A DNA stretch of 64,000 nt from positions 62,001 to 126,000 of the forward strand of contig CAMCXT010000002.1 in NCBI GenBank assembly GCA_945883545.1, read 5' to 3'. Position numbers and translations under genes: made by a program. The first letter of the stretch is position 1, and every line of letters begins with the position of its first letter. The notes beneath the pieces were generated by a model. The model was not told where the DNA came from. It searched no databases and was given only the letters and a program-made list of their open reading frames with translations. Shown one piece after another: positions 37,892 to 40,701 of the stretch. The DNA is from Chitinophaga pinensis (GTDB lineage: Bacteria > Bacteroidota > Bacteroidia > M30B66).

Positions 37892-37902
37892 GTTTGCTAC
37901 GC

Positions 37903-38319
37903 ATGATGATAACCGAGACCCGATCTGTAAGTTTTCCCTCTGTGAAAGAGAATATCGCCCTTGTAGGCAAATACGTAGATGAGATATGTGAGTTCTATAA
38001 TATCGGAGACGAAAATTATGGGAACATCCTGATTGCGGTAACAGAAGCTGTTTCAAATGCCATTTATCATGGAAACCGTTTGAATCCTGATAAGGATGTT
38101 CGTTTCCATTATGAAACCAAAGAAAACAACCTATGTTTCGTGATTGAAGATGAAGGCCGTGGATACAACCCTGAAACATTGCCAGACCCAACCGATCCTG
38201 AGAATGTTGAGAGTCCTAATGGACGTGGTGTTTTTCTAATGCGTAAGCTAACCGATGATATTCGATTCGAGAATGAGGGCAAGCGCGTTGAACTTTATTT
38301 CAGAATCGTAAATCAATAG
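37903..38319 (+). CDS. HATPase anti-sigma-factor-like ATP-binding protein
   Basis: A 138-residue GHKL-fold single-domain protein of the RsbW/SpoIIAB type. The N-box is AVTEAVSNAIYHGNR (about 45-58), the G1 box is IEDEGRGYNP, and the G2 box is NGRGVFLMRKLTDD. Such proteins bind ATP and usually hold a sigma factor or an anti-anti-sigma (STAS) protein. No sigma-B-like, STAS or PP2C gene is visible next to it. The start is ATG at 37903 (or 37906) rather than a TTG at 37894. It ends with a TAG that is in frame with the downstream ybeY reading frame (see the finding on ybeY). Confidence 0.88.
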   Translation: MMITETRSVSFPSVKENIALVGKYVDEICEFYNIGDENYGNILIAVTEAVSNAIYHGNRLNPDKDVRFHYETKENNLCFVIEDEGRGYNPETLPDPTDPENVESPNGRGVFLMRKLTDDIRFENEGKRVELYFRIVNQ

Positions 38320-38322
38320 GCC

Positions 38323-38754
38323 CTGATAACATTTCATCTGCAGGACATTTCATTTCGCCTGCAACATAAGCTACTGATCCGTAATTGGATTAAAGAGGTC
38401 GCCCGGTCTGAATCTAAACAGACGGGCGATCTCGTTTTTATATTCTGTAGTGATGAATTCCTGCTCAATATGAACAAGGAATACCTTCAACACGATTATT
38501 ACACAGATATCATCACATTCGATTATTCAGAAAATGAAAGAGTTGCTGGTGAAATGTATATTAGCCACGATCGTGTTTTAGACAACGCTAAAAATTTGAA
38601 TATTAGTGAATTAGATGAATTACACCGTGTAATCATACATGGTGTTCTTCATTTATGTGGATACAAAGACAAAACGAAAAAAGACGAGATTTTGATGCGT
38701 TTGGCCGAGGACAAAGCTTTGAAAATGCGACCTTTGCCGTTGCTCGGATTGTAA
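38323..38754 (+). CDS. ybeY: Endoribonuclease/rRNA maturation factor YbeY, apparent CTG start
   Basis: A conserved YbeY of 143 residues if read from the CTG at 38323. Translating from it gives MITFHLQDISFRLQ and a full N-terminal half; the first ATG is only at 38470 (residue 50), too late for the fold. Hallmarks: FCSDEFLLNMNKEYLQHDYYTDIITFDY, and the metal site HGVLHLCGYKD. H106 and H110 are present and the usual third His is D116, as I recall for Bacteroidota YbeY. Only CTG (38323), ATA (38326) and CTG (38338) can serve as start codons between the upstream stop and the domain. YbeY takes part in 16S rRNA 3'-end processing and ribosome quality control. It is 3 bp after the HATPase gene. Confidence 0.9.
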   Translation: MITFHLQDISFRLQHKLLIRNWIKEVARSESKQTGDLVFIFCSDEFLLNMNKEYLQHDYYTDIITFDYSENERVAGEMYISHDRVLDNAKNLNISELDELHRVIIHGVLHLCGYKDKTKKDEILMRLAEDKALKMRPLPLLGL

Positions 38755-38793: not shown

Positions 38794-38809
38794 TGTTTCA
38801 CGTGGAACA
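38794..38809 (+). promoter_or_regulatory. parS-like centromere site 1
   Basis: TGTTTCACGTGGAACA: one base from the classical ParB site TGTTTCACGTGAAACA. It lies 6 bp before the mnmG ATG. parS sites bind ParB and load SMC/condensin and ParA systems near the replication origin in many bacteria. Its position beside mnmG (gidA) matches the classic location of parS near oriC. Confidence 0.8.
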
Positions 38810-38815
38810 CAAGCT

Positions 38816-40684
38816 ATGTTCAAAGAATATGATGTGATTGTTGTTGGCGCAGGTCATGCCGGTTGCGAAGCTGCTGCTGCTGCTGCCAACATGGGATCAT
38901 CTGTGTTGTTGGTTACAATGAACATGATGACTATCGGACAGATGTCTTGCAATCCCGCCATGGGAGGAATTGCCAAAGGACAGATCGTTCGTGAGATAGA
39001 TGCTTTAGGAGGTTATTCGGGCATTATTTCCGACAAGTCGGCGATACAATTCAAAATGCTCAATCTGTCGAAAGGGCCAGCGATGTGGAGCCCTCGTGCA
39101 CAGAACGATAGAAATCGATTTGCCGAAGAATGGAGAATGACACTGGAAGGCATTTCGAACCTTGATTTTTTCCAGGACATGGTCTCGGGATTAATCATTC
39201 AAGGAAATAAAATTACAGGAGTTAAGGTTGGTTTAGGAATAGAAATTAGAGCCAAAGCTGTTGTTTTAACCAATGGCACTTTCCTCAATGGGCTCATTCA
39301 TATAGGCGAAAAGAATTTTGGTGGAGGTCGCGCAGCGGAAAGAGCAGCAACTGGTATAACAGAGCAATTGGTTGATTTAGGATTTCAATCAGGAAGAATG
39401 AAAACGGGTACTCCACCAAGATTGGATGGTAGGTCTTTGGATTATTCGAAGATGGAAATTCAGCCGGGAGATGTAATCCCAGGGAAGTTTTCATATACCG
39501 ACACTCCCCTACTTTCAAAGCAACTTCCTTGTTGGATGACCTACACTTCAGGTGAAGTTCATGACACACTGCGAAAAGGATTTGATAAAAGTCCGATGTT
39601 TAGTGGTCGTATTCAAGGTCTAGGACCAAGATATTGTCCATCTATCGAAGACAAGATTGATCGTTTTGCCGACAAGGAAAGGCACCAGCTTTTTGTAGAG
39701 CCTGAAGGATGGAATACAGTTGAAGTATATGTAAATGGATTTTCAACATCTCTACCTGAAGAGATACAGTTTGAGGCATTGAAGAAAGTTGCTGGGTTCG
39801 AAAACGTAAAGATGTTTCGTCCTGGTTACGCGATCGAGTACGATTACTTTCCGCCTGAACAGCTTCAGTTAACTTTAGAAACCAAATTAGTTCAGAATCT
39901 TTATTTTGCTGGGCAGATAAATGGAACTACTGGTTATGAAGAGGCTGCTGGTCAAGGCTTGATGGCAGGTATTAATGCGCATTTAAAGATTCGTGGTGAG
40001 GCTCCTTTTATTTTGTCGAGGTCGGAAGCTTATATTGGTGTTTTGATCGATGACTTAGTAACAAAAGGAACAGAGGAGCCATATCGGATGTTCACCTCAA
40101 GAGCTGAATACCGGATTTTACTGCGACAAGATAACGCCGATTTTAGGTTGACTGAGCGATCGTTCAATATCGGGTTAGCGAAAAAGGATCGCTTAGATGC
40201 AGTTAAAGAAAAGTACATGCGTGTCGACGAGGCTGTTAAGCACTTGAAGAACGCTAGTGCAGATCCGAATGAGTTGAACCCTTATCTAGAGGCGCAACAA
40301 TCACCAGGAGTAACACAAAGGGTTAAGTATTCGGGAATAGTTGCAAGGCCGCAGGTTTCACTTATTGCAATGAAAAATGCTTTGCCATCTTTAAAGGATC
40401 ACTTTGAAGAACGCAATATTGATGACAATGATCTCACGCTCGCTGAGATCCAGATGAAGTATGAAGGTTACATAAAAAAGGAGCAAGAAGTAGCCGACAA
40501 ACTTGGTAGATTGGAGCACATTGAGCTTCACGCGAACTTTGATTATTCTGCTCTAAAATCTCTATCAACCGAAGCAAGACAAAAGTTATCTGCAATCAAA
40601 CCAAGGAACATCGGTCAAGCATCTCGCATCAGCGGCGTGTCTCCTTCCGATATTTCGGTGTTGATGGTTTATCTTGGTCGCTGA
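38816..40684 (+). CDS. mnmG: tRNA uridine-5-carboxymethylaminomethyl modification enzyme MnmG
   Basis: A 622-residue FAD protein that acts with MnmE to make (c)mnm5U34 in tRNA. The dinucleotide site is [21 protein letters not shown] (about 6-22). Family blocks: [146 protein letters not shown] and the C-terminal helical part with [14 protein letters not shown]-like [18 protein letters not shown]. It is between two parS-like sites, 6 bp after the first and 1 bp before the second. Confidence 0.98.
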
Positions 40685-40685
40685 T

Positions 40686-40701
40686 TGTTTCACGTGGAAC
40701 C
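40686..40701 (+). promoter_or_regulatory. parS-like centromere site 2
   Basis: TGTTTCACGTGGAACC, identical to site 1 except its last base, directly between the mnmG stop and the ATG of the next gene (40703). Same orientation as site 1, 1.9 kb away. Confidence 0.72.

Follow-up and report, generated by a model that had tools for sequence, protein, structure and literature searches.

Where does translation of ybeY begin when the expected N-terminus of the protein carries no canonical start codon? The question was raised by a first-pass annotation of a 64,000-nucleotide stretch of Chitinophaga pinensis DNA (the window, to which all coordinates refer), where the gene follows closely on the stop codon of an HATPase gene. 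The features of the locus are the following.

Plus strand, listed ahead of the HATPase gene: DUF4175 protein gene
37894..38319, plus strand: RsbW-like HATPase gene (serine kinase/anti-sigma type; HATPase_c_2, 1.8e-25), upstream of ybeY
38317..38325, plus strand: TAG-GCC-CTG junction, with the HATPase stop, a 3-nt spacer and the predicted ybeY start codon
38323..38325, plus strand: predicted ybeY start codon CTG (CTG or TTG across nine family genomes)
38323..38754, plus strand: ybeY, rRNA maturation RNase of 143 aa (Pfam, TIGR00043, AlphaFold, Foldseek)
38326..38469, plus strand: ybeY codons 2-49, ahead of the first ATG; they encode beta1-alpha1-beta2 of the fold and show strong purifying selection
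38470..38472, plus strand: first in-frame ATG of ybeY (Met50), a residue not conserved in the family
38816..40684, plus strand: mnmG (gidA), downstream of ybeY

Reading frame and surroundings of ybeY

The HATPase gene, with start candidates at TTG 37894 or ATG 37903/37906, ends in a TAG that is in frame with ybeY. The junction reads GTA AAT CAA TAG (38317-38319) GCC CTG (38323-38325) ATA ACA TTT, and the frame remains open to the TAA at 38752-38754. Between the TAG and codon 50 (38470), no ATG, GTG or TTG occurs in this frame, the best start on offer being the CTG at 38323; its upstream region is AT-rich (AAATCAATAG), without a Shine-Dalgarno (SD) sequence. The reading of the frame thus confirms that ybeY has no ATG at its real start and that the first one lies at residue 50, as had been claimed.

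In addition, a near-palindromic 14-mer, GTTTCACGTGGAAC, flanks mnmG on both sides (38795-38808 and 40687-40700), and these are its only two copies in the whole 3.15-Mb genome. Seven of the eight relatives have a matching site (GTTYCACGTGRAAC) close to ybeY/mnmG; the remaining one is represented by a short locus (L012). The 14-mer is, we presume, close to the ParB site parS.

Identity and N-terminus of YbeY

The protein read from the CTG matches Pfam YbeY (1.8e-24, residues 14-134) and passes the curated cut-offs of both family models, scoring 86.5 with PF02130 (cut-off 25) and 90.7 bits with TIGR00043 (cut-off 45), versus 74.3 bits with the latter when read from the ATG at 38470. The metal-site motif HGxxH is present as HGVLH (residues 106-110) and is invariant in the family. 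The third metal ligand is an Asp (residue 116, 38668-38670) and not a His as in E. coli; this His is a variable feature, not demanded by the YbeY family models. Since Asp occupies the site in all 110 Bacteroidota ybeY genes where the motif was found, family and outgroups alike, it represents a phylum-wide variant of the third ligand.

Given that codon 50 is the first canonical start, ybeY could be a pseudogene, or the real protein could begin at Met50. Against this, codons 2-49 show a dN of 0.04 and a dS of 0.67 in comparison with the nearest relative (G002, 81% identical), and Met50 is replaced by Ile or Ala in three family members, and YbeY proteins of the family with ~50% identity can be aligned starting with residue 1. 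AlphaFold modelled the protein read from the CTG with a pLDDT of 94.3; a start at Met50 would remove beta1 (residues 2-7), alpha1 (16-29) and beta2 (33-42) of this model. Foldseek matched the model to the solved structures of YbeY from Aquifex, S. aureus and E. coli (1oz9, 7y7o and 1xm5; TM 0.72-0.77). From the aligned sequences, the N-terminus read from the CTG is the real one, and the probability of a pseudogene or of a Met50 start is practically nil. The earlier placement of the true N-terminus 5' of the first ATG therefore holds, based on the substitution pattern, the lack of conservation of Met50 and the completeness of the fold.

Start codon across the family

The family set comprised nine genomes with ybeY (that of the window and eight relatives), all draft assemblies of apparently uncultured bacteria. 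In a tenth family genome (73% complete) no match to ybeY was found, and the loci L035 and L073 were left out of the counts because their records duplicate the assemblies G006 and G005. The homologous first codon is CTG in seven genomes and TTG in two, never ATG or GTG, so that a start other than ATG, GTG or TTG is kept across the lineage. This codon always lies exactly 9 nt 5' of an invariant Phe codon, TTT (9/9), despite an identity of only ~50% for most of the proteins. Further 5', back to the previous in-frame stop, the frame contains no ATG, GTG or TTG in any member. Of the Leu codons in these genomes, 8-9% are CTG and 32-39% are CTG or TTG; as such a minority, the two would not be expected at this position in all nine genomes if it were an ordinary internal Leu codon. 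In a concatenated HATPase-YbeY-MnmG tree the family holds together (support 100), with the two TTG members on separate branches, which makes CTG the most parsimonious ancestral state.

The eight further genomes rule out a sequencing error at the start, a doubt voiced when the CTG was first put forward; the site is never ATG or GTG in them (it is TTG in two), and in no relative does ybeY begin at the position of the 38470 ATG. On this comparative evidence, which we regard as strong, CUG is very probably the start codon of ybeY, and the proposal of CTG initiation just after the TAG gains support from the CTG or TTG found at the homologous codon in 9/9 genomes.

Initiation could instead take place at the next codon (ATA in the window genome), with the CTG left untranslated. 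Codon 2 is ATA, ATC or ATT in eight of the nine members, and infC starts at ATA in these genomes. However, in the relative L005 codon 2 is GTA, not a usual start, which makes ATA unlikely in this role, and Ile at codon 2 is a common YbeY feature that is also seen in outgroups starting further upstream. Moreover, a strong SD precedes the infC ATA and none precedes ybeY, two members have the ordinary start TTG one codon earlier, and the NTG invariance at that position would be left without explanation. We thus consider an ATA start very unlikely. From the candidates first listed (CTG, ATA and CTG), the CTG at 38323 is retained as the start and the ATA at codon 2 is not.

infC and initiator tRNA

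In the window genome, infC begins AGGAGGAACCAAGCC-ATA-GC (locus L116, G000:C44), and all ten family genomes retain this ATA (loci L113-L122), in nearly every case behind an AGGAGG-like SD. A conserved infC AUA behind a strong SD is unusual for Bacteroidota and, judging from the sequences, would imply autoregulation by IF3. A second, divergent infC, whose start is also apparently ATA, was found in G004:C31 (L112), possibly reflecting assembly contamination. Outside the family, a pattern search for infC starts gave matches only at non-infC places.

An initiator-type anticodon stem-loop (GGGCTCAnAACCC search) was found with the anticodon CAT in six of ten genomes and with CAG in none, one extra match, in G004, having CAA. 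As the stem-loop search gave no CAG anticodon, a special CUG-reading initiator tRNA was rejected as an explanation, and an ordinary fMet-tRNA must be assumed.

The HATPase-ybeY junction

The spacer between the HATPase stop and the ybeY start measures 3 nt in the window, 3 in L003, 9 in L005, 4 in L006, 4 in L007, 2 in L008, 8 in L012, 1 in L013 and 9 in L019. The start codon is therefore within 9 nt of the upstream stop in 9/9 genomes, the proximity that characterizes a translationally coupled pair. The two genes share a frame in only four of the nine, the spacers covering all three frames. It had been noted that the TAG lies in the frame of ybeY and that rare readthrough would yield an HATPase-YbeY fusion; the first point stands for the window genome, but not across the family. 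If readthrough of the HATPase stop were the sole source of YbeY, the in-frame TAG of the window genome would be accounted for; the starts spread over all three frames by the 1-9 nt spacers would not, and eight of the nine genomes have TAA as the stop, TAG being confined to that of the window. A conserved fusion mechanism is thus contradicted by the spacer frames, the fusion is not supported, and readthrough as the sole source of YbeY is highly improbable. Instead, the conservation of closeness but not of frame fits termination-reinitiation, and the distance alone would suggest translational coupling of the HATPase gene and ybeY.

No GGAGG-like run was detected within 20 nt upstream of the start at any of the nine junctions. 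For the junction alignment, RNAalifold returned four weak pairs without compensatory change (-0.24 kcal/mol); a structured regulatory RNA was rejected on this result, which indicates no conserved structure.

Outgroups and rarity of such starts

In a set of 99 ybeY genes from other Bacteroidota, the start codon was ATG in 86, GTG in seven and TTG in five, one not being resolved by the script. Non-ATG starts account for 8/20 cases in which an HATPase gene ends within 60 nt and for 5/79 otherwise (Fisher p 5e-4, not corrected for phylogeny); the GTG or TTG starts with an HATPase end at most 60 nt away are those of loci L004, L014, L036, L039, L088, L091, L093 and L106. This excess suggests that the limiting of ybeY at this junction may be wider than the family, with CUG as its extreme form.

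To place ybeY among other genes, ~0.83 Mb of the window genome was screened against ~1.83 Mb of G006 and G008, giving 279 reciprocal ortholog pairs (at least 40% identity). Of the genes that are clearly real, ybeY and infC alone lacked a canonical start in both partners. Inspection by eye assigned every other candidate on the list either to antisense shadow ORFs or to alignments extending a few codons beyond an ATG that both partners share. A lineage-wide tolerance of CUG was thus not seen among these pairs.

A count cited in PMC9845219 puts CUG starts at 20 ORFs across 69 genomes, and our literature search retrieved no report of one for ybeY. Only two of 61,358 AUG starts had changed to CUG, and between close genomes ancestral GUG and UUG had turned into AUG in 4% and 1.7%, respectively (PMC5622118). 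With a CUG start, GUS was not detectable in E. coli or chloroplasts (PMC9845219), so YbeY output may be very low, or another context may be needed.

Proposed mechanism

Ribosomes finishing the HATPase gene would most likely re-initiate at the CUG a few bases on, with the ordinary fMet-tRNA. From the near-cognate first base and the absent SD, initiation at this codon is predicted to be inefficient and sensitive to IF3, and YbeY would then be made at a low and tunable level, linked to translation of the HATPase gene. The absence of an SD is usual in the phylum (PMC6847099). IF3 represses both non-canonical starts (PMC5472188) and SD-less re-initiation (PMC2268962), so the ybeY site should be doubly sensitive, and YbeY output probably depends on IF3. 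Re-initiation, low output and IF3 sensitivity are what we infer from the position and conservation of the start and the tight junction; taken as a whole, the statement that weak CUG re-initiation behind the HATPase stop gives a low, tunable and IF3-sensitive output appears reasonably likely to us.

The conservation of a non-AUG start suggests that the cells may deliberately hold YbeY production low or adjustable. Alternatively, the weak start could have arisen by accident, with a single fixation in the ancestor of the family, and have persisted without any regulatory role because re-initiation yields YbeY in sufficient amounts. The frequent non-ATG starts of outgroup ybeY genes next to an HATPase gene (8/20) would agree with a junction that tolerates weak starts. 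Nevertheless, a single base restores AUG, a change that is generally favoured (PMC5622118), and nine divergent genomes with zero AUG point to selection against it. We consider such an accident unlikely, while giving it real weight.

More speculatively, the CUG could make YbeY synthesis a read-out of initiation stringency, in a circuit with the AUA-started infC through start-codon discrimination: shifts in the 30S pool or in IF3 loading would shift re-initiation at the CUG and, with it, the level of YbeY, a 30S 3'-end maturation factor. In E. coli without ybeY, more IF3 is found on 30S subunits (PMC5101352), which would lower the use of CUG, a sign opposite to that of a homeostatic loop. Such a circuit is, in our view, doubtful.

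Few start codons are rarer in bacteria than CUG, yet a divergent family has retained it in a ribosome-biogenesis gene that is nearly universal. The locus could thus serve as a natural test case for start selection by Bacteroidota ribosomes, in a phylum without SD sequences, and for the tuning by IF3 of genes besides its own. It is also a warning that, in this lineage, gene-calling programs will truncate YbeY by its first 49 residues or miss the gene altogether; the risk of a truncated gene call, pointed out from the window alone, is real.

Comparison with known systems

The closest parallel is infC, with its AUU/AUC/AUA starts and IF3 autoregulation in E. coli, Streptomyces and S. aureus. As in ybeY, a non-canonical start is conserved, and the two genes are alike in their 30S/initiation function and in a start one base off AUG, which would be weak by design. 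However, YbeY, unlike IF3, does not itself read start codons, and the infC of this family combines AUA with a strong SD (AGGAGG), whereas ybeY has a CUG, no SD and a position behind the stop of another gene. The GUC start of sigR in Streptomyces, repressed by IF3 (PMC5472188), is similarly a very rare start kept in a lineage and overlooked by gene callers, and the proposal that it keeps the protein below its operon partner is a further likeness to ybeY. In contrast, the sigR start lies behind an extensive SD (AGGAGGTG) and was experimentally tested, while ybeY is known here from sequence and has its weak codon in the downstream gene. In Staphylococcus, ccpN (AUA) and cvfC1 (AUU) also have conserved non-canonical starts, with reporters yielding ~10% of AUG (PMC13009471); these are other codons and genes, and have an extended SD, unlike ybeY. 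The strong or extended SD that compensates for the start codon in infC, sigR and ccpN, albeit not strictly defining, is thus absent at ybeY in all nine junctions. Termination-reinitiation, in turn, is known from M13 V/VII (PMC2268962) and from overlapping gene pairs (PMC6728339), where the start is near the upstream stop as in ybeY, and SD-less re-initiation at M13 V/VII is sensitive to IF3 (PMC2268962); the cases studied use AUG, often overlapping the stop, whereas ybeY has a CUG behind it. Judged from these sequences, the conserved CUG start of ybeY would be a fresh case beside the known infC AUU, sigR GUC and ccpN AUA.
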